12,578 nucleotides of DNA from Bacteroidales bacterium UBA3684. GTDB taxonomy: Bacteria > Bacteroidota > Bacteroidia > Bacteroidales > P3. Shown one piece after another: positions 851 to 12,086 of this stretch. Location of the stretch: NCBI GenBank assembly GCA_002372855.1, contig DFIZ01000084.1, positions 1 through 12,578 on the forward strand, written 5' to 3'. Each line of letters opens with the position of its first letter. Position 1 is the stretch's first letter. The position numbers were made by a program, and so were the translations under genes. Under the pieces are notes generated by a model. That model saw only the letters and a list, made by a program, of their open reading frames with translations. It had not been told where the DNA came from and ran no database searches.

Positions 851-2041
851 TTATCCCTCGGTGCAGGCCGTCGCCAGGCGGAAGAAGAGCCGGGCGGCGG
901 GTTCGACGAGGGCGTCGGGGAAGTCGTAGTCGGGATGGTGGAGTTCGGGCTGGTGCTCGCCGCTGCCGATGCCGAACATGGCACCGGGGAACTCAAGCAG
1001 ATACTCGGCGAAGTCCTCGCTCCAGCGGTTAGGCTCCATCTGATAACGGACACGAAGCGGCACATCCTCTGCCGCTTTTTCTATTGCTTCCACGCAATCG
1101 CCGTTGTTCTCGGTGGCGCGGAAAGGTTCGACGAGAGAACGACTGACTTTCAAACCATAACGAGCAGACACCTCGTCTACTACTTGGTTGGCTTCTGAGA
1201 GCATTTTTTCCATCTCGTCGTTGGTGAAAGCACGGAGGGTGAACATCACTTCGCCATGCCCCGCCGAAGTGCCGAAGGCCGGCTGCCCCACCCTCACGCA
1301 TATCAGCGTAGACTGCCGAAACTCCCCATTTTGCCCATTAAACCTATTGAACCTATCAATCATCTCGGCAATAGCCATCCCCGGATTGATGCCCAATTCG
1401 GGTGTCGAAGCATGTGTCTCGCGACCGTCAAGGTGGTAGACGACGCCCGTGGAGGCGGCGGCGAAAGTCCTCGGACAGAGTACTACGGTGCCCAGCGGAT
1501 AGCCCGGAAGGTTGTGCAAAGCATAGAACGACTGAATGTTATACTGCTGGAGAATGCCACTCTCAAGGATGGCCTGTGAACCGGTGCCGGTTTCCTCGGC
1601 GGGCTGCCAGAGGAGGAGGAGGTTTTTGTCAGTGTTAAGTGTTGAGTGTTTAGTGTTTAGTTGGCTGTCGCCGTCCCGCGTAGCATCACTACACACTGAA
1701 CACTGAGCACTAAACACTTCATCTATCAGTTCTGCCAGGCGGAGGAGGATGGTGGTGTGGCCGTCGTGGCCGCAGCGGTGGCCTATGGGCAGGGCGTCGG
1801 TGTCGGCGCGGAAGGCGATGGTGGGAACACCCCTCCGCCCTTCGGGCACCTCCCCTTGCGAAGGGGAGGAGTCTTTTGCCATCCAGACGGCGATGACGCC
1901 GTAGCCGCCGACGTTGGTGTAGACCTTGTCGGGGTGGAGGCCCTGCAGGTGACGGACAATCATATCGTGTGCAAACTGCTCGTTGCCGGCGGTCTGCGGG
2001 TGCTCGTGGAGCTGATGGCGTATTTCCTTGTAATCAATCAT
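851..2041 (-). CDS. M20D-family amidohydrolase (metallopeptidase-like)
   Basis: A 396-residue protein of the M20D family, which hydrolyses N-acyl amino acids or related amides with a two-metal centre. Visible motifs: Asp80-x-Asp82-Ala-Leu-Pro, Cys90-Gly-His92-Asp-Gly-His, the Glu149-Glu150 pair in QPAEE, His176 in HNLPG, a dimerisation-domain His210, and the terminal metal ligand in LHHP (368-369). All expected ligands are present, so the enzyme looks active. The start ATG overlaps the stop of the upstream ligase gene (ATGA), which implies coupled translation. Two odd stretches look like inserted repeat DNA: residues about 58-72 and 111-137, both at loop positions. The linker between DALPI and CGHDGH is also much shorter than usual for M20D. 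The substrate is unknown; the operon with two muropeptide-precursor genes suggests, without proving, a cell-wall or D/L-amino acid role. Longer upstream starts in this frame only read through the ligase gene in the wrong frame. Confidence 0.85.
   Translation of the reverse strand: MIDYKEIRHQLHEHPQTAGNEQFAHDMIVRHLQGLHPDKVYTNVGGYGVIAVWMAKDSSPSQGEVPEGRRGVPTIAFRADTDALPIGHRCGHDGHTTILLRLAELIDEVFSAQCSVCSDATRDGDSQLNTKHSTLNTDKNLLLLWQPAEETGTGSQAILESGILQQYNIQSFYALHNLPGYPLGTVVLCPRTFAAASTGVVYHLDGRETHASTPELGINPGMAIAEMIDRFNRFNGQNGEFRQSTLICVRVGQPAFGTSAGHGEVMFTLRAFTNDEMEKMLSEANQVVDEVSARYGLKVSRSLVEPFRATENNGDCVEAIEKAAEDVPLRVRYQMEPNRWSEDFAEYLLEFPGAMFGIGSGEHQPELHHPDYDFPDALVEPAARLFFRLATACTEG
1631..1718. repeat. 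Inverted heptad-array element (AGTGTTN units) inside the amidohydrolase gene
   Basis: Four forward units (AGTGTTA, AGTGTTG, AGTGTTT, AGTGTTT; 1631-1658), a core of about 32 bases (1659-1690), then four inverted units (ACACACT, GAACACT, GAGCACT, AAACACT; 1691-1718). The whole can fold as a hairpin. It lies in frame and encodes residues about 111-137 of the amidohydrolase, between a helix and the QPAEE strand. A perfect AGTGTTT array would bring a stop into frame; the unit-to-unit changes seen here avoid it. Confidence 0.85.
1829..1870. repeat. Double-hairpin element, copy 1 (in amidohydrolase gene)
   Basis: Two adjacent small hairpins: GCCC-TTC-GGGC (1837-1847) and a 9-bp stem CCTCCCCTT/AAGGGGAGG with loop GCG (1849-1869). 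A second copy is at 3088-3133 in the ligase gene. Both are read in the same orientation and frame, giving SPSQGE-(V/L)-(P/S)-EG-(R/L)-RG. Here it encodes residues about 58-72, before the RADTDALP strand. Confidence 0.8.
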
Positions 2042-3408
2042 AGTTTCAAAATCTGTTCGCGGAAGAAGTCGCCGCGGTGTTCGAAGTTCTTGAAGGCGTC
2101 GTAGCTGGCCGCCGCCGGCGAGAGGAGTACTACCCCACCCTGCGGCGTGTGGGCGGCGCACCAGGGGACGATCTTGGTGTAGTCGTCCTCGGTTAAAATT
2201 GAAAATTGAAAATTGGAAATTGAAAGTTCTTCGCGAATCCTTCTGCCTGCTTTTCCGACAAATACGACGTTCTTCAAGGGCGTATCCTTCAGGAAGGCAA
2301 CCAGCGGACTGTAGTCGATGCCACGGTCGAAACCGCCGAGGATGAGGGTGTCGACACGGCCGAGGGCTCGCACGGCGGCGATGGCAGCCTCGGGGATGGT
2401 GGAGATGCTGTCGTCGTACCAGGTGATGCCGTGCACCTCGCCGATGCGCTCCATGCGGTGGCGGAGACCTTTGAAAGTGGAGAGCGGAGAGTGGAGAGTG
2501 GAGAGCGGCTGGCGCAGGACGAGGGCGGCCACACGGCAGGCCACGAGGGCGTTGCTGCGGTTGTGGTCGCCGCTGAGGGGGCAAGCGTCGAGGAGCTGGC
2601 ACTCTTCGGCGGTGATGTCGTGGAGGCTGTAGGGATGGAGAGTGGAGAGTGGTGAGTGGTGAGTGGTGAGAGACGAGTGGGCGACGAGGTCGCGCAGTTC
2701 GTCGTTGTCGGTGCAGTAGAAGAAGTGGTCGCCCTCCTGCTGGCGCAGGGCTATCTGGAACTTGGCCATTTTGTAGCCGAGGTAGTTCTCGTAGTGGTCG
2801 AGGTGTTCCTGGAAGAGGTTGAGCAGCACGGCGATATGGGGTCCGCGATGGATGTTCTCCAGCTGGTGGCAGCTGAGTTCGGCCACGACGAGGGAGTCGG
2901 GGCGGAGGTCGTCGAGGATGTCGAAAAGCGGGATGCCGATGTTGCCGGCCAGGATGGAGCCCGGCAGCAGATGATGGATGAGGCTGGCAGTGGTGGACTT
3001 GCCTTTGGTGCCGGTGACGCCGATGGTAAGGTCGCCGTAGACCTGCAGGAAGAGGTCGGTGAGGGAAGTTAGGTGAAAAGAGGAGGAACCCCTCAGTCCT
3101 TCGGACAGCTCCCCTTGGGAAGGGGAGCAGCCAGTCGGGGCGAGGGAGGGGTCGTATTGGGGAAGAGGGATACAGTGGAAGGTGGGGATGCCGGGGCTCT
3201 TGATGACGAGGTCGAAAGGCCAGTCGTCGTGCCACTGGTCGGCGATGTCCTTCCACTTCCCCTTTTCCACCTGCGTGGCGATGGTGACGGGTGCCGAGGG
3301 CAGGAGTTTCTTGATCAGGTTCTCGGCGCTCTTGCCTTCGCGGCCGTAGCCGGCGACGAGTATGCGGCGGCCCTGGAGGAGGGCTTTCAGTTGTTCTTCT
3401 CTGTACAT
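2038..3408 (-). CDS. murD2: MurD2-like ligase (UDP-MurNAc-L-Ala--L-glutamate ligase)
   Basis: A 456-residue Mur ligase. N-terminal UDP-binding domain 1-90 (ILVAGYGREGKSA), ATP P-loop GTKGKSTT at 133-140, catalytic-centre motifs NLFQEHLDHYENY (197-209) and SGDHNRSNA (279-287), and C-terminal domain motifs FKGLRHRMERIGE (312-324), DDSISTIPEA (332-341) and LSPAAASYDAFKNFEHRG (429-446). The overall pattern is MurD-like, but canonical MurD has DSKATN where this protein has DSISTIPE, and GTNGKS/GSNGKS where this has GTKGKS. With MurL next to it, this fits MurD2, which adds L-Glu rather than D-Glu to UDP-MurNAc-L-Ala in the cytoplasm. Its start overlaps the end of murL by 22 bases and its stop overlaps the amidohydrolase start. 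Four in-frame repeat insertions (residues about 94-111, 245-261, 301-312, 397-404) lie at loops or domain borders. Plain MurD is the alternative; glutamate specificity cannot be proved here. Confidence 0.8.
   Translation of the reverse strand: MYREEQLKALLQGRRILVAGYGREGKSAENLIKKLLPSAPVTIATQVEKGKWKDIADQWHDDWPFDLVIKSPGIPTFHCIPLPQYDPSLAPTGCSPSQGELSEGLRGSSSFHLTSLTDLFLQVYGDLTIGVTGTKGKSTTASLIHHLLPGSILAGNIGIPLFDILDDLRPDSLVVAELSCHQLENIHRGPHIAVLLNLFQEHLDHYENYLGYKMAKFQIALRQQEGDHFFYCTDNDELRDLVAHSSLTTHHSPLSTLHPYSLHDITAEECQLLDACPLSGDHNRSNALVACRVAALVLRQPLSTLHSPLSTFKGLRHRMERIGEVHGITWYDDSISTIPEAAIAAVRALGRVDTLILGGFDRGIDYSPLVAFLKDTPLKNVVFVGKAGRRIREELSISNFQFSILTEDDYTKIVPWCAAHTPQGGVVLLSPAAASYDAFKNFEHRGDFFREQILKL
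2195..2229. repeat. Heptad array (AAAATTG units) inside the ligase gene
   Basis: AAAATTG three times, GAAATTG, AAAGTTC, all in 7-bp register (2195-2229), with no inverted partner. The minus strand reads in frame as SISNFQFSIL, residues about 395-404 of the ligase. The minus-strand unit CAATTTT is stop-free; the plus-strand unit would give TGA, so the array lies in the only orientation that keeps the gene open. Confidence 0.8.
2476..2510. repeat. Heptad array (AGTGGAG/AGCGGAG units) inside the ligase gene, copy 1
   Basis: Five units in exact 7-bp register: AGTGGAG, AGCGGAG, AGTGGAG, AGTGGAG, AGCGGCT. The coding (minus) strand reads PLSTLHSPLSTF, residues 301-312, between the HNRSN motif and the FKGLRHR motif. 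There is no inverted arm. Confidence 0.85.
2635..2682. repeat. Heptad array (AGTGGAG/AGTGGTG units) inside the ligase gene, copy 2
   Basis: ATGGAG, AGTGGAG, AGTGGTG three times, AGAGACG, AGTGGGC, all in 7-bp register. Coding-strand product SSLTTHHSPLSTLHPYS, residues about 245-261. It has the same orientation as the array at 2476-2510, 124 bases away, so the two form direct rather than inverted arrays. Confidence 0.85.
3088..3133. repeat. Double-hairpin element, copy 2 (in ligase gene)
   Basis: Same layout as 1829-1870: hairpin GTCC-TTC-GGAC, then a 9-bp stem GCTCCCCTT/AAGGGGAGC with loop GGG. It differs from copy 1 by paired changes in both stems (C:G to T:A in the first, C:G to G:C at the base of the second), so pairing is kept. 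It encodes residues about 94-107 of the ligase in the same frame as copy 1, at the border of the N-terminal and central domains. Confidence 0.8.
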
Positions 3409-4793
3409 GCTTGCTGAAGGATTTGGCGTTCTTCTTCGGTGAGGTTGCCGATGGGAGAGATATGCTCCAGGTTTATGATTTGCCGGCGGGACGCCGGCGC
3501 TCCATCATATTCCAGGAGTTTGGGGCGGCGGTCTTTGTACCAGCGTTCGACAGCCATCTGGAGGGCCTGGCGCACCTCGCTGACGGTGCCGACGCACTCG
3601 AAGGGTTTGGTCTCGGCCAGGCCAAGGAGCTGGCGGAACTCAAGGTCGAGCGTTGTGTCGTCGAGCATCGACTTGCCGAAGATGGCGTTGAGGCGCTCCG
3701 GCGCTATGAAGGGCGAAAGGATGATGTAGGCGAAGAGGCACTTGGCGCAGTGGCCGCACCAGATGTCCTCCTTGCTGCCGACGTTGCAGGAGCGGAAGAC
3801 GTCGTGGTAGGCCGTGAAACGGCTGAAAAGCATGGCTATCTGCAGCTCGGAGAGCGGCCGCAGGAAAGAGAAGTAGTTAAATGAAGCCGCTTCATTTACA
3901 TAATTACGGAAGTCGTCCTCAAACTCGAGGCTCTTGCTGTACTGATGGTTGACATAGCTGCCTTTCACGGTGCTCTCGTTGGCGGAGCTCTCGTTGCTGA
4001 GGGCCACATTGGGGATGCCGCTGAGGGCAGAGGCCAGGCGGGTGTAGAAGGCCAGCATGGCGGAGAAGGGGGTGTGGCCGTTGAGGTAGCCTTTGGCGTT
4101 GAGGTCCAGGAGCGTGGGGTCAATCTTGCGGCGGATGACGAGCACCTCCTCCAAGGGGAAGCCCGCCACACGGGCACACTCGCGCGTGGCGCCGCGGGGG
4201 TTCATAATCAACGGCCGGATGGTCTTGCCCGCACGGCGCAGCAGCTCGAGCGTCACCACGCTGTCTTTGCCGCCTCCGATGGGGACGAGGTAAGCGGAGA
4301 GTGGAGAGTGGAGAGTGGAGAACGGGCTGCCGCCGGTCTGACTGGTTTTGTTCTCCGTTCTCCGCTCTCCGTTCTCCACTCTCCACTCTCCACTCTCCAC
4401 TCTCAGAAAACCATCCTGGCTTTCCGAGATGCCGTTGGTATAGAAGAACTCGCCGAGGCCGTTCCAGTAGAGCTTGCGCCAGAAGGCCGTCTGTTCGTCG
4501 GTGAGTGCGCCGCAGAGTACCTTGACCGTTGGCGGACAGGCACATTTCCAGTAGCTTATCAGTTCTATCATGCCGATGTCGAACACCATGCGGTCCAGCA
4601 CCTGGGTTGGAACATCACGGGAAAGGAAGGGGCGCGCCTCGATGAGGGCCTCGGGGTGGAACACCACATCGCCCATGCGGAAATCGAACCACAGACGCAG
4701 TCCCTCGGCCGTCCACTCGTGGTGGAAGGCCTCGTAGAGAAACTCGGGATAGCGCTCCCGCAACTCGGCGTATTTTGTACTATTGTTATTCAT
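3387..4793 (-). CDS. murL: MurL, UDP-MurNAc-L-Ala-L-Glu epimerase
   Basis: A 468-residue protein with an ATP-pyrophosphatase PP-loop, PIGGGKDS at 171-178, followed by NPRGATRECARVAG (198-211), NGHTPFSA (238-245), ALSNESSANEST (264-275), NHQYSKSLEFEDDF (282-295) and a Cys cluster C346-GH-C349-AK-C352. These features fit MurL, the enzyme shown in Xanthomonas to invert the terminal L-Glu of UDP-MurNAc-L-Ala-L-Glu with ATP cleaved to AMP and PPi; the PP-loop suits that chemistry. It is the first gene of the minus-strand operon and overlaps the ligase start by 22 bases, so the two steps are co-expressed. The start ATG at 4793-4791 follows an A/T-rich leader. Residues about 130-166 are encoded by an inserted inverted heptad element directly before the PP-loop, and residues 431-437 by a GC palindrome. 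The assignment rests on motifs and neighbourhood, not on a database search. Confidence 0.85.
   Translation of the reverse strand: MNNNSTKYAELRERYPEFLYEAFHHEWTAEGLRLWFDFRMGDVVFHPEALIEARPFLSRDVPTQVLDRMVFDIGMIELISYWKCACPPTVKVLCGALTDEQTAFWRKLYWNGLGEFFYTNGISESQDGFLRVESGEWRVENGERRTENKTSQTGGSPFSTLHSPLSAYLVPIGGGKDSVVTLELLRRAGKTIRPLIMNPRGATRECARVAGFPLEEVLVIRRKIDPTLLDLNAKGYLNGHTPFSAMLAFYTRLASALSGIPNVALSNESSANESTVKGSYVNHQYSKSLEFEDDFRNYVNEAASFNYFSFLRPLSELQIAMLFSRFTAYHDVFRSCNVGSKEDIWCGHCAKCLFAYIILSPFIAPERLNAIFGKSMLDDTTLDLEFRQLLGLAETKPFECVGTVSEVRQALQMAVERWYKDRRPKLLEYDGAPASRRQIINLEHISPIGNLTEEERQILQQACTEKNN
3482..3498. repeat. GC-rich palindrome in murL
   Basis: GCCGGCG, loop GGA, CGCCGGC: a perfect 7-bp stem inside the C-terminal part of murL. 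On the coding strand it reads as GAPASRR. It looks unlike the flanking codons and may be another short inserted palindrome, but one copy is not enough to be sure. Confidence 0.4.
4294..4405. repeat. Inverted heptad-array element (AGTGGAG units) inside murL
   Basis: Forward units GCGGAGA and GTGGAGA three times (4294-4321), a core of 30 bases (4322-4351), then seven inverted units TCTCCGT, TCTCCGC, TCTCCGT and TCTCCAC four times (4352-4400), plus a partial TCTCA. The two arms can pair into a long hairpin. The element is in frame and encodes residues about 130-166 of MurL, with the repeated peptides SGEWRVE on one side and STLHSPL on the other. Confidence 0.9.
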
Positions 4794-7407: not shown

Positions 7408-8442
7408 ATGAATAGATACCTCAAAATTGCGACCGTCGTCCTCGCCACCCTCTCCCTCGTGGCCTGCGGCGGCAAGGGTGGCGACAATGCTGCCACCACC
7501 ACCAAGAAAGAAGCCGAAAAAGTGAAAGTGCAGGTCCTCCAGAGCGAGCGCATCGCCAAGAGCCTCGAACTCTCCTCCACCCTCGAGGGCTACGAGACCA
7601 TGAACATCGCCCCCTCCGTCACCGGCCACATCGAGCACATCTACGTCGAAGTGGGCAGCCGTGTGCAGAAGGGCTCCATGCTCGTCCGCATGGACCAGAC
7701 CCAGCTCAACACCACCCGCATCAACCTCGCCTCCACCAAGACCGAGCTCGACCGCGTCACCGCCCTCAAGGCCTCCGGCTCCGTCAGCGAGCAGGTCTAC
7801 GACCAGACCAAGGCCGGCTACGACCAGCTGGTGGAAAGCGAGCGTTTCCTCGACCAGAACACCTTCGTCAAGGCCCAGTTCGCCGGCGTCATCAGCGCCA
7901 AGAACTACGAGGACGGCGAGATGTATGCCGGCCAGCCCATCCTCACGCTGACCCAAATCTCCCGCCTCAAGGCCATCATCAACATCCCCGAAACCTACTT
8001 CCCCCTCGTCCGTCAGGGCATGAAGGTCGACATCGCCAGCGACATCTACCCCGACCAGACCTTCCCCGCCACCATCGAGATTGTCTACCCCACCATCGAC
8101 CCCGCCAGCCACACCTTCCAGGCCAAGCTCAACATCCCCAACAGTTCTGAAAAGATCCGTCCCGGCATGTACGTCCGCGCCACCCTCGCCATCGGCGAAA
8201 TCGACGCCATCGTCGTCCCCTACCAGAGCGTGCTGAAGCTCACCGGCAGCAATGACCGCTATGTCTTCGTGGCCGACGGCAACACCGCCCGCCGCGTGGC
8301 CGTCACCATGGGACAGCGCTTCGACGACCGCATCGAAATCATCCCCGTCGAACCCGGCGCCATCAAAGCCGGCGACCGCCTCGTAGTCACCGGCCAAGCC
8401 CGCCTCGTCGACGGCGACAACCTGGAAATTGTGGAAAATTAA
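7408..8442 (+). CDS. RND efflux membrane-fusion protein (lipoprotein adaptor)
   Basis: A 344-residue HlyD/AcrA-family adaptor. The signal ends in the lipobox Leu-Val-Ala-Cys20, so it is lipid-anchored. After a Thr/Lys linker come the first half of the biotinyl-lipoyl domain (about 64-98, APSVTGHIEHIYVEVGSRVQKG), a short coiled-coil hairpin (98-150), the second lipoyl half (152-185, FAGVISAKNYEDGEMYAGQPI), the beta-barrel (188-265) and the membrane-proximal domain (266-340). It links the pump to the TolC-like channel across the periplasm. Its TAA stop is the first three bases of an A/T heptad array that precedes the inserted four-helix-bundle gene, which now separates it from the pump gene. 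Confidence 0.93.
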   Translation: MNRYLKIATVVLATLSLVACGGKGGDNAATTTKKEAEKVKVQVLQSERIAKSLELSSTLEGYETMNIAPSVTGHIEHIYVEVGSRVQKGSMLVRMDQTQLNTTRINLASTKTELDRVTALKASGSVSEQVYDQTKAGYDQLVESERFLDQNTFVKAQFAGVISAKNYEDGEMYAGQPILTLTQISRLKAIINIPETYFPLVRQGMKVDIASDIYPDQTFPATIEIVYPTIDPASHTFQAKLNIPNSSEKIRPGMYVRATLAIGEIDAIVVPYQSVLKLTGSNDRYVFVADGNTARRVAVTMGQRFDDRIEIIPVEPGAIKAGDRLVVTGQARLVDGDNLEIVEN

Positions 8443-8467
8443 AAATTAATAATTAAAAATTAAAACA
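8440..8467. repeat. A/T heptad array, left arm (TAAAAAT units)
   Basis: TAAAAAT (8440-8446), TAATAAT (8447-8453), TAAAAAT (8454-8460), TAAAACA (8461-8467). Bases 8444-8463 are a perfect 20-bp inverted match to 8880-8899 on the far side of the four-helix-bundle gene. The first unit supplies the stop codon of the adaptor gene. The units contain TAA, so this array could not stay open inside a gene. Confidence 0.85.
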
Positions 8468-8486
8468 GCAGAAAAACAACCGGAAC

Positions 8487-8855
8487 ATGGCTAACAACAC
8501 ACTGAAAGACAAAAGTCTCCTGTTTGCTGTACGATGCGTGAACCTGTACAAGCTGCTTTGTGACGAACGTAAAGAATTCGTCCTAAGCAAACAGATGCTC
8601 CGCAGCGGTACAAGCATCGGGGCAAATATCAGTGAAGCCCTATGTGCCGAAAGCAACAAAGATTTCATCCACAAACTACATATTGCATACAAGGAAGCGA
8701 ACGAAACACAGTATTGGTTCGAGGTCATGCTGAAATCAAATCTGATTAATGATATAGAATATACATCAATCAACAATGATCTCGCCGAACTCTTAGCCCT
8801 CCTTACCTCCATTATAAAAACCTCAAAGAAAAAACAATTATCAGACCAAATTTAA
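8487..8855 (+). CDS. Four-helix-bundle protein (23S rRNA intervening-sequence/S23 type)
   Basis: A 122-residue, fully helical protein. Family hallmarks: SKQMLRSGTSIGANISEA (34-51), a short turn, then SNKDFIHKLHIAYKEANET (56-74) with a YWFEVMLKSNLI helix. Proteins of this family were first seen encoded in intervening sequences of bacterial 23S rRNA genes and are related in fold to the Avd accessory protein of diversity-generating retroelements; they form pentamers and may bind nucleic acid. The biochemical role is unsettled. Here the gene splits the adaptor-pump pair of an efflux operon. Its base use is markedly more A/T-rich than its neighbours, and it is bounded by inverted A/T heptad arrays, all signs of a later insertion. 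It has no role in efflux that I can see. ATG 8487 follows a short A-rich leader; no promoter of its own is evident. Confidence 0.88.
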   Translation: MANNTLKDKSLLFAVRCVNLYKLLCDERKEFVLSKQMLRSGTSIGANISEALCAESNKDFIHKLHIAYKEANETQYWFEVMLKSNLINDIEYTSINNDLAELLALLTSIIKTSKKKQLSDQI

Positions 8856-8903
8856 TTGTTATCTTATAATTGTTAATTATTAATTTTTAATTATTAATTA
8901 GAC
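8855..8903. repeat. A/T heptad array, right arm (inverted)
   Basis: ATTGTTA (8855-8861), TCTTATA, ATTGTTA (8869-8875), ATTATTA, ATTTTTA (8883-8889), ATTATTA (8890-8896), ATTAGAC (8897-8903), all in 7-bp register and, apart from TCTTATA, the reverse complement of the TAAAAAT/TAATAAT type seen on the left. It starts on the last base of the four-helix-bundle stop codon and ends three bases before the pump ATG. Confidence 0.85.
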
Positions 8904-8906
8904 AAC

Positions 8907-11900
8907 ATGGCAATCTATAAAACCGCAATCAACAAGCCCATCACGACCGGCCTCATCTTCGTGGCCGTCATCGTGCTCGGCCTCTTCTCGCTGACGCGGC
9001 TGCCCATCGACCAGATGCCCGAGATGGACCCGCCCTACGTCACCGTCATGACCACCTACGCCGGCGCCAACGCCAGCGACATCGAGACCAACATCACCAA
9101 GCTGGTCGAAAACTCCCTCAACTCCGTCGACGGCCTGAAGAACATCACCTCCAACAGCCGCGACAACATCTCCGTCGTCACCCTCGAGTTCGAATGGGGC
9201 GCCGACATCGACGAGGCGCTCAACGACATCCGCTCCTACGTCGACCTCCTCTTCGACAACCTCCCCGACGGCGTCTCCCGTCCCATGATTCTCAAGCTCA
9301 ACTCCTCGGCCATGCCCATCATGGTCTACGGCTTCACCGCCAAGGAGAGCTATTCCGGTCTCGACCGCATCCTCGAGGACAACGTCGTCAACGAGCTCAA
9401 CCGCATCGACGGCATCGGCAACATCACCGTCTCCGGCGCCCCCGAGCGCTACGTCTACATCGACCTCGACCCCAAACAGCTCGACGCCTACGGCATCTCC
9501 CTCGAGCAGGTCGGACAGGCCATCTCGGCCAACAACCTCGACCTCGCCTCCGGCACCGTCAAGATGGGCAAGGAGCAGTACCAGATGCGCGTCAAGGGCG
9601 AATACGTCGAAAGCTCCGAGATAGCCGACATCGCCGTCACCACCACCTACACCGGCCGCCAGGTCTTCGTCCGCGACCTCGCCACCGTGCGCGACACCAT
9701 CAAGGACCTCTCCCTCGACGAGAAAATCAACCGCCACGACGGCGCCCGCATCATCATCTCCAAGCAGACCGGCGCCAACACCGTGCAAATCGCACGCGAG
9801 GTGAAAGCCGAAATGGAACGCATCCAGAAGACCCTGCCCCCCGACATCGAGACCACCCTCATCCGCGACGGCTCGACCGACATCGTCAACGCCATCAACG
9901 GCCTCACCGAGTCCATCTTCTACGCCCTGCTCTTCGTGGTCCTCGTGGTGCTCGTCTTCCTTGGCAACTGGCGCGCCACCGTCATCATCTCCCTCACCAT
10001 CCCCATCTCCCTCGTCACCTCCTTCATCTACCTCCTCCTCGCCGACTCCTCGCTCAACATCATCTCCCTGGCCTCCCTCACCGTGGCCATCGGCATGGTG
10101 GTCGACGACGCCATCGTCGTTCTGGAGAATATCTCCAAGCACATCGACCGCGGCGAGAACCCCCGCGAGGCCGCCATCTGCGCCACCAACGAGGTCTGGA
10201 CCTCCGTCATCGCCACCACCCTGGTCCTTGTGGCCGTCTTCGTGCCCCTGACCATGCTGCCCGGCATGATGGGCATCTTCATGAAAGAGATGGGCTGGAT
10301 CATCACCATCGTGGTCTGCGTATCCACCACCGCCGCCATCACCCTCATCCCCATGCTCTCCTCCAAGATGCTCAAGGAGCGCCCCTTCTTCTTCAAGAAG
10401 GAGGAAGAGGAAGCCTACAACCGCAAGAAAGAGCACAGCTTCTACAACCGCACCGTCATCCGGGCCTTCAACGCCATCGAGGCCGCCTACGCCAACCTCC
10501 TGCGCTGGTGCCTGCGCCACAAACGCATCACCCTCCTCATCGCCCTCGCCTTCTTCGTCGTCACCCTCCTGCCCATGTTCATGGGCAAAATCGGCATGGA
10601 CTTCATGAAGGAGCAGGACAACGGACAGATTTCCATCACCGCCGAGCTGCAGCGCGGCACACGCATCGAGGAAACCCTCAAGACCGCCCGCCAGATGGAG
10701 GACGACGTCTACCGCATCCTCGGCGACGAGGTCATCGTGGTCTCCACCACCGCCGGCTCCAACGACGACGCCGGTTTCGCAGCCCTCTTCAACTCCACCA
10801 CCAACAACAAGATCTCCATGAATATCCGCACCACCAAGAAGTACGACCGCGACATCACCATCTTCCAGATGCAGGAACAGCTGCGCCAGTGCTTCGCCGA
10901 ATACCCCGAGCTGGTCACCTATCAGGTCAACCAGGGCGGCATGGGAATGGGCGGCCAGAACTCCCTCTCGGTCGAAATTTACGGCTACGACTTCGACATC
11001 ACCACCAACTTCACCCAGCAGCTCAAGAAGCGCGTCGAACAGAACGTCCCCGGCGCCCGCGACACCAAGGTCAGCCGCGACGAGGACCGCGCCGAGCTCA
11101 AGATTACCTTCGACAAGCAGAAACTGGCCCTCCACGGCCTCAACGGCTCCACCGTGGCCCTCTACGTCCGCAACCGCGTCAACGGCATGTCCGCCGGTTT
11201 CCTCAAGGAGGACGGCGAGGAGTACAACATCGTGGTCCGCCTCCGCGAGGAGTACCGCTCCTCCATCTCCGACATCGAGCAGCTCTCCATCCCCACACCC
11301 ACGGGCAAAATCATCAAGCTCGAGGAACTGGCCAAAGTCGAGGAATACTGGTGCCCGCCCACCATCGAGCGCAAGAACCGCCAGCGCTACCTCACCCTCA
11401 CCGTCATGCCCTATAACACCTCGCTGCAGGAGCTGGCACAGAGCGTGCAGCATGAGCTCGACCAGATGGAGATACCCTCCGACGTCCACGTCGCCCTCGC
11501 CGGCAACTACAAGGACCAGCAGGATTCCACACGCGACATGATGATGCTCGGCATGCTCATCCTCATGCTCGTCTACATCGTCATGGCCTCGCAGTTCGAA
11601 TCCTTCTCCAAGCCCTTCATCATCATGTTCTCCATCCCCTTCGCCATCAGCGGCGTGGTACTCATGATGTTCTTCACCGGCAACAACATCGACATGGTGG
11701 GCCTTCTCGGCCTCATCCTCCTCATCGGTATCGTCGTCAAGAACGGTATCGTGCTCGTCGACTACATCAACCTCATGCGCGAACGCGGCATCGCCCTCAA
11801 CGAGGCCATCGCCCTCTCCGGACAGAGCCGTCTGCGCCCCGTGCTCATGACCGCCTTCACCACCATCCTCGGCATGATCCCCATGGCCACCTCCACCTCC

Positions 11901-12086
11901 GAGGGCTCCGAAATCTGGACCACCATGGGCCTCGTCGTCATCGGCGGCCTCACGGTCTCCACCTTCGTCACCCTCATCGTCGTCCCCGTTCTCTACGGCG
12001 TCTTCAACCGCCGCGGCGACATCGAAAAGAAGGAGCGCGAACGCCGCAAATTCGTATTCATGAACATCGATCTTAATGAAAAATAA
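8907..12086 (+). CDS. AcrB-type RND efflux pump (HAE1-like)
   Basis: A 1059-residue inner-membrane pump, full length for the family. TM1 is at about 11-31, followed by the first porter region (PPYVTVMTTYAGANASDIE...), TM2-6 (about 336-490), TM7 near 540-560, the second porter region, and TM8-12 to about 1035. The proton-relay residues are in place: Asp400-Asp401 in GMVVDDAIVVLENI and Lys945 in GIVVKNGIVLVDY. It would exchange protons for export of drugs, bile salts or similar compounds through the adaptor and channel encoded upstream. The Asp-Asp pair and sequence type fit the multidrug (HAE1) branch better than metal pumps, but the substrate is unknown. The start ATG lies just after an inserted A/T array, so its original leader has been changed. 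Confidence 0.93.
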   Translation: MAIYKTAINKPITTGLIFVAVIVLGLFSLTRLPIDQMPEMDPPYVTVMTTYAGANASDIETNITKLVENSLNSVDGLKNITSNSRDNISVVTLEFEWGADIDEALNDIRSYVDLLFDNLPDGVSRPMILKLNSSAMPIMVYGFTAKESYSGLDRILEDNVVNELNRIDGIGNITVSGAPERYVYIDLDPKQLDAYGISLEQVGQAISANNLDLASGTVKMGKEQYQMRVKGEYVESSEIADIAVTTTYTGRQVFVRDLATVRDTIKDLSLDEKINRHDGARIIISKQTGANTVQIAREVKAEMERIQKTLPPDIETTLIRDGSTDIVNAINGLTESIFYALLFVVLVVLVFLGNWRATVIISLTIPISLVTSFIYLLLADSSLNIISLASLTVAIGMVVDDAIVVLENISKHIDRGENPREAAICATNEVWTSVIATTLVLVAVFVPLTMLPGMMGIFMKEMGWIITIVVCVSTTAAITLIPMLSSKMLKERPFFFKKEEEEAYNRKKEHSFYNRTVIRAFNAIEAAYANLLRWCLRHKRITLLIALAFFVVTLLPMFMGKIGMDFMKEQDNGQISITAELQRGTRIEETLKTARQMEDDVYRILGDEVIVVSTTAGSNDDAGFAALFNSTTNNKISMNIRTTKKYDRDITIFQMQEQLRQCFAEYPELVTYQVNQGGMGMGGQNSLSVEIYGYDFDITTNFTQQLKKRVEQNVPGARDTKVSRDEDRAELKITFDKQKLALHGLNGSTVALYVRNRVNGMSAGFLKEDGEEYNIVVRLREEYRSSISDIEQLSIPTPTGKIIKLEELAKVEEYWCPPTIERKNRQRYLTLTVMPYNTSLQELAQSVQHELDQMEIPSDVHVALAGNYKDQQDSTRDMMMLGMLILMLVYIVMASQFESFSKPFIIMFSIPFAISGVVLMMFFTGNNIDMVGLLGLILLIGIVVKNGIVLVDYINLMRERGIALNEAIALSGQSRLRPVLMTAFTTILGMIPMATSTSEGSEIWTTMGLVVIGGLTVSTFVTLIVVPVLYGVFNRRGDIEKKERERRKFVFMNIDLNEK

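Follow-up and report, generated by a model that had tools for sequence, protein, structure and literature searches.

The segment at positions 8435–8900 of the window, the 12,578-nucleotide stretch of DNA from Bacteroidales bacterium UBA3684 that we analyzed, is probably a member of a class of short insertion elements in which a gene for an S23-type four-helix-bundle protein lies between a short-unit tandem array and an inverted array. The units of these arrays are 6–12 bp long, with 7 bp in most loci. This order of array, S23 gene and inverted array recurs as a unit across many phyla, with arms that match within each locus and units that differ between loci.

The features of the window locus are listed in Table 1. 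As the preliminary description of this DNA had proposed, an S23-type gene was found to split the adaptor and pump genes of an efflux operon, and the site lies outside any rRNA gene. The adaptor reading frame ends within the left array, so its stop codon is supplied by the array. Tandem Repeats Finder reported period 7 at 8435–8465 and 8867–8900, and period 14 at 8852–8899. The opposed orientation of the two A/T heptad arrays was also confirmed, as was a perfect 20-bp inverted match between the arms (8444–8463 and 8880–8899); a second inverted pair of 29 nt (93%) was present at 8437–8465 and 8864–8892. The A/T content of the arms could be ruled out as a chance source of the 20-bp match, as in 5000 dinucleotide shuffles of both arms, which preserved their A/T richness, the longest inverted match had a mean of 8.5 and a maximum of 17, and a length of 20 was reached in 0/5000.

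Table 1. Positions of the insertion, its host genes and the gene-less arrays in the window.
Feature	Position	Strand	Remarks
S23 / four-helix-bundle gene (PF05635, TIGR02436)	8487..8855	+	122 aa; profile matches, model
Left array, period 7	8435..8465	+	unit about AATTAAA; contains adaptor stop codon
Right array	8852..8900	-	inverted relative to left array; clean period-7 part 8867-8900
Host adaptor gene, HlyD/CusB-type	7408..8442	+	left of insertion
Host RND pump gene, AcrB-type	8907..12086	+	right of insertion
Gene-less inverted pair, period 7	4296..4404		4296-4321 GGAGAGT, 4350-4404 inverted; 28-nt core; inside ORF 3387-4793
Gene-less pair, period 7	1631..1718		1631-1661 AGTGTTT, 1693-1718 ACACTGA; inverted by eye
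Single array, period 7, AATTGAA type	2195..2225		inside murD-like ORF 2038-3408
Single array, period 7, GGAGAGC	2479..2508		inside murD-like ORF 2038-3408
Single array, period 7, TGGTGAG	2636..2670		inside murD-like ORF 2038-3408

The window protein had PF05635 as its sole Pfam match (E 7.8e-27, 94 bits against a cut-off of 33.8), with no transposase domain, and it also matched TIGR02436 (E 8e-31, 106.5 bits against a cut-off of 24). An AlphaFold monomer model consisted of four helices with a mean pLDDT of 93.3. The top Foldseek match to this model was 2RLD (TM 0.98 by target length), followed by 2GSC; the Avd structure 4DWL reached a TM of up to 0.86 with a weak E value of 0.11. Solved relatives of S23 proteins are pentamers. 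A single search with the window protein alone returned 5874 homologues. In five of ten pairs of S23 genes dN/dS was 0.02–0.12, the remaining pairs being saturated, and the gene is under purifying selection. The PF05635 match places the protein, as had been suggested, in the family that is encoded in rRNA intervening sequences (PMC4990558).

To quantify the association of S23 genes with arrays, we scored the best tandem segment (period 6–13) within 300 bp on each side of a gene, and called the gene framed when the best ungapped match between the left arm and the reverse complement of the right arm was at least 12. The genome of the window (G000) contained nine PF05635 matches, and inverted arrays with units of 7–11 bp framed eight of them. 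These arrays were alike within one locus and different between loci; the 7-mer types were GTGTTTA, GAGTTAA, AATTAGG, AATTAAA and GTGGAGA, and 8-mer, 9-mer and 11-mer units were also present. The ninth gene (L008) was longer, more divergent and without arrays, as were all four loci from other genomes of the genus with a similar score and length (4/4 without arrays). This longer, divergent S23 branch (L008, L263–L266; arrays in 0/5) perhaps has a host gene role.

A first set from the genus comprised 69 loci, of which 66 had flanks of at least 150 bp on each side, 44 were framed and four matched directly; in an added set 14/16 were framed. Together with the eight loci of the window's own genome, 66 of 90 genus loci were framed, a count that covers mainly the top E-value matches among those listed, against 1 of 279 control ORFs drawn from random stretches of four genomes. 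When the threshold was raised to 18, these numbers were 53 of 90 and 0 of 279. Genes for ParE toxins, another small accessory family, were framed in 0/28 cases in the genus (30 loci fetched, 29 scored with L301 left out, and one dropped for a short flank).

Framing extended well beyond the genus. Among the best 80 of 579 relatives in named genomes from many phyla, 76 had flanks and 36 of these were framed, compared with 2/242 control ORFs from the same records, and the two framed controls were themselves a second S23 gene and a GxxExxY gene. Within that best-80 sample, with phyla taken from the record names, 21/41 loci outside Bacteroidota were framed, including 6/9 in Acidobacteria. Two handles of this sample, L170 and L072, denote one locus. 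The expectation that other family members carry such flanks more often than random genes was therefore borne out in both samples. The inverted-array test was failed by 24/90 genus loci and 40/76 named loci. In the class of L243, which we take to be Gammaproteobacteria in GTDB, 44/274 genomes matched the 2GSC segment; 30 loci were fetched (L345 being a repeat of L243), 28 had flanks, and 16 were framed. No Xanthomonas S23 copy was recognised in this class sample because the best match to the 2GSC segment, 2GSC being the Xanthomonas S23 protein, had 55% identity. Seven genomes reached through individual loci held 26 S23 matches, of which 19 were scored and 15 framed, seven of the 19 having already been counted elsewhere.

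There were 25 plasmid records that matched S23, and 11/15 plasmid loci were framed; L370 had a direct match stronger than its inverted one, and L379, L382 and L383 had a direct instead of an inverted match. Neither of two phage scaffolds with S23 was framed (0/2). Several S23 units were located within defence operons (L371, L379, L380, L382), in between hsdS and hsdR, cas2 and cas1, or the genes for a DrmD helicase and for a methyltransferase of the PglX type. Matches between arms in direct orientation were rare (4/90 in the genus, 2/76 in named genomes and 0/28 in the class of L243). Same-direction arrays or adjoining second S23 genes were noted at L066, L082, L094, L200, L379 and L382, and these loci are possibly compound units.

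Comparison of relatives revealed both empty and occupied sites, as anticipated in the preliminary description, at the window junction, at four other junctions of the same genome and in closed Nostoc plasmids. Both genes flanking the window junction were in view in 23 genomes of the genus, its own included. S23 was present in 5/23, 2–25 bp separated the genes in 9/23, and 33–88 bp in the remaining 9/23; several of the 33–88 bp spacers resemble arrays or gene-less mini-units, and at L016 A/T heptads in inverted order with a core of a few bases were recognised by eye. In G022 the S23 frame appears broken. The four other junctions gave 29 comparisons with relatives, which were classed by eye: 11 relatives had 2–16 bp, two had a 55-bp host spacer, L416 held a different S23 element, six had inverted array pairs without S23 (L422, L419, L420, L409, L415, L421), and the rest had single arrays or other spacers. 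Plain host sequence was also found between inverted array pairs at these junctions in relatives. At the L007 junction, L413 carried a hairpin repeat of another kind, with much CCCCTCTCCAAGAGG, and similar stretches were seen by eye in the window near 1829–1869 and 3089–3130.

On the Nostoc plasmids, BLAST segments indicated that insert L374 replaces 188–198 bp present in four relatives. Insert L376 replaces 328 bp of a methyltransferase gene that is intact in three relatives, and inserts L379 and L380 replace 61–64 bp between cas2 and cas1; the replaced host DNA may have been lost after insertion. No target-site duplication was seen by eye at the three Nostoc site types. At one of them the array unit was present once at the left junction in the intact relative, as would fit a unit seeded by the target site, and at the other two no match to the array unit was seen by eye in intact relatives.

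These comparisons bear on whether S23 is instead a regulator or host gene whose operator or terminator sites are the arrays. For the array-free branch (L008 and the four similar loci) a host role is possible. Over the family as a whole we consider this explanation extremely improbable, since copy number ranged from 0 to 18 per genome, many relatives had empty junctions, and several S23 copies contained stops.

Across the 88 framed loci the period was 7 in 52, 8 in 14, 9 in nine and 10 in seven, with periods of 6, 11 and 12 in two loci each. Median lengths were 480 bp for the element and 32 bp for the arm. When the strand was read inward from either end, G exceeded C in 83 of the 88 loci; the window is one of the five exceptions to this polarity. 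Within the genus, the unit type follows the S23 subfamily: array resemblance was 0.722 within a subfamily and 0.569 between subfamilies (0/1999 permutations), and the period was likewise common to the subfamily (0/1999). Over all 88 loci the link between array sequence and subfamily held (0/1999 permutations) and the link with period was absent (593/1999). For 26 distant loci the array sequence gave 23/1999 permutations, and the relation of period to subfamily was reversed (1999/1999). A plain Mantel test was not significant (172/999).

Counts of the 8-mer GTTGATNN array in 59 genomes provided a further view of this association. The nine genomes with the AFFEEL subfamily had 0 to 205 such arrays (median 34) and the 50 without it had a median of 3 (p 0.0009), with a reversed control pattern near zero. 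High counts were also found without a subfamily gene in G065, G056, G060 (44), G013 (41) and G022 (35), and G014 had the AFFEEL gene without the array. GTTGAT arrays were abundant in some genomes without the cognate subfamily (143 in G065 and 73 in G056) and absent in G014, which has it. The preliminary description had raised the question whether the S23 protein acts on the arrays; this gained indirect support from the subfamily–unit association in the genus and, with these clear exceptions, from the larger number of cognate arrays where the subfamily is present.

In S23-bearing genomes, arrays can be far more numerous than the S23 genes themselves. A 149-kb sample of G000 contained 51 non-simple arrays (period 7–12); samples of 80 kb contained 34 in G002, 20 in G022 and two in G015, a genome with a single weak S23 match. 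Per 100 kb this amounts to 34 arrays in G000 and 42 in G002, and block-shuffled sequence gave 0 in every sampled genome. G006 had 13 S23 matches, yet 0 arrays in 40 kb, and S23 number was rejected as a simple predictor of array number (Spearman 0.23, p 0.078, not significant). A less strict threshold gave 226 arrays in random stretches; where two of them lay no more than 700 bp apart, the pair was unrelated in 69 cases, direct in 13 and inverted in 11, which indicates that single arrays prevail. The murD-like genes of the genus (window 2038–3408, L249–L260) were observed to encode heptad-derived peptides, e.g., NFQFSIFNFQ; these lie in loops of low conservation, and their positions coincide in several species. 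A separate repeat type consisted of period-11 arrays placed head to head with loops of 3–5 nt (L141:7500–7592, L142:9455–9540, L128:11436–11514, L116:12828–12922 and L145:11231–11325).

That arrays far exceed S23 genes in number in G000, G002 and G022, that relatives carry single and inverted gene-less arrays at the same junctions, and that arrays occur in murD gene loops would all fit a model in which the arrays came first, as common repeats that spread or originate by slippage, with S23 genes as passengers moving from array to array by ordinary homologous recombination. We regard this order of events as unlikely. In array-rich genomes framing of control ORFs was near nil (1/279), none of the ParE genes was framed, insertion into one array predicts same-direction flanks whereas inverted flanks were observed, and the unit type in the genus follows the S23 subfamily.

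The preliminary description had also proposed that a stem formed by the arrays loops the S23 gene out of the polycistronic mRNA, and this part was unsupported. Over the 88 loci, arm pairing comprised 2285 Watson–Crick, 36 G.U, 55 A.C and 124 other pairs, and the 36 G.U against 55 A.C pairs give no indication that a stem in the sense RNA has been under selection. In addition, the S23 gene on two Nostocaceae plasmids is opposite in strand to the surrounding cas1/cas2. An RNA-level intervening sequence, with a stem of paired arms that RNase III would cut in the transcript and an element that operons tolerate because the mRNA loses the insert as 23S rRNA does, is quite doubtful in our opinion, even though the predicted RNA fold has the window arms as its terminal stem (z -3.73) and an S23-bearing rRNA intervening sequence has a 28-bp terminal stem that is cut by RNase III (PMC4990558). 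Arm mismatches lack a G.U excess, some S23 loci lie on the strand opposite to their neighbours, and a coding mRNA that was cut but not rejoined would still be lost as a message.

There was no match to the reverse transcriptase profile RVT_1 (PF00078) in 11/22 genomes, including G000, whose assembly is only 79% complete, and G002, which has 18 S23 matches. Movement driven by a reverse transcriptase of this family in the manner of Avd is thus disfavoured, and a PF00078-family enzyme from the same genome seems not to be needed. GxxExxY nucleases (PF13366, PD-(D/E)XK) were also examined: by the same criterion, 11/30 of their loci in the genus (L425–L454) were framed, mostly with period 9, or 12/30 if periods up to 26 were allowed (p 1e-11 against the 1/279 control ORFs and p 3e-4 against ParE). 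GxxExxY matches were absent in several array-bearing S23 genomes, e.g., G049, G052, G053 and G072, and the nuclease is accordingly a parallel passenger or partner and not a general need.

Returning to the reading of the segment as an insertion element, we propose that the S23 protein would bind or bridge its cognate arrays, as DNA or nucleoprotein, and would aid the copying of the element into new sites; gene-less arrays would probably also be copied in trans with S23 help. The G-rich inward polarity of the 83 loci suggests that arrays may arise where the host's 3' ends flanking a break or gap are extended from either side. Counting against the element reading are the loci that fail the inverted-array test, the lack of a period link outside the genus, the Mantel result, the loose relation of array density to S23 number and of GTTGAT arrays to their subfamily, the scarcity of inverted pairs among neighbouring arrays, the inverted pairs around plain host sequence, and the exceptional polarity of the window locus. 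A far broader reading, to which we give a low though appreciable probability, is that S23 proteins, with GxxExxY nucleases acting in parallel, drive cross-phylum elements that write telomere-like arrays. By this reading, both host 3' ends at breaks or gaps would receive a G-rich inward extension with a repeat set by the protein subfamily, a PF00078-family reverse transcriptase would not be needed, and the arrays would come to enclose either an S23 gene or a segment of host DNA. The rRNA intervening sequence would then be a trace of this process, as would the unexplained heptamer arrays known from Xanthomonas, Nostoc, Geobacter and Beggiatoaceae.

One of the closest known counterparts of these units is the rRNA intervening sequence. 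PMC4990558 describes an insert of about 430 nt that has complementary ends and contains an S23 ORF and, in one case, three tandem heptamers ahead of the ORF. The S23 ORF between complementary ends, the sporadic distribution and the proposed mobile past are shared with the units described here. Intervening sequences, however, lie in rRNA genes and are excised by RNase III, whereas our units lie between or inside protein genes, with arrays on both sides and no sign of RNA-stem selection. The rRNA intervening sequence may belong to the array-ended class; on a stricter view, the units may be a variant of it, the novelty being their array-ended architecture.

Heptamer arrays have been described separately. 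Hundreds of short arrays of GGGAATC in Xanthomonas and GGGGATT in Nostoc were reported (PMC4692102), with 70 and 75 convergent inverted pairs in two Xanthomonas genomes and the G-rich strand inward, and they resemble ours in their short heptamer units, convergent pairs and polarity. No protein partner was seen there, and a word search of the main text for S23 and four helix gave nothing. TAACTGA repeats in Beggiatoaceae, Cyanobacteria and Bacteroidetes, for which no evident mechanism was given (PMC4679880), and heptanucleotide elements in Geobacter (PMC2700814) are likewise dispersed heptamer arrays, mostly intergenic, but differ in having been interpreted as regulatory sites; S23 and four helix were absent from both main texts (word search). 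A link between S23 and arrays outside rRNA was absent from the available parts of these four papers, and in the open-access literature, with subscription journals and preprints lying outside it, we found no paper tying S23 genes to tandem arrays as mobile units.

Two other systems invite comparison. Avd of diversity-generating retroelements (4DWL, 8UB7) has the same fold as the window protein, and PF05635 has been called Avd-like (PMC10053308), but the partner of Avd is a reverse transcriptase, which half of the genomes tested here lack as RVT_1. REP/RAYT systems consist of a single gene between inverted short repeats, with numerous gene-less copies. Our units are similar in that a gene is framed by inverted repeats and many copies lack the gene, and differ in having no transposase domain and in being built of tandem arrays that vary by locus.

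The function of S23 proteins is not known, although crystal structures exist, and the heptamer arrays reported from several phyla are likewise without a mechanism. The link between them gives both puzzles one shared, testable partner. If S23 proteins do make or move arrays, the array-ended elements would form a class apart from known transposons, introns and retroelements, one whose insertion targets include cas1–cas2, restriction-modification and efflux operons. Such a link may help to explain the seven-letter repeats that are scattered in many bacterial genomes.
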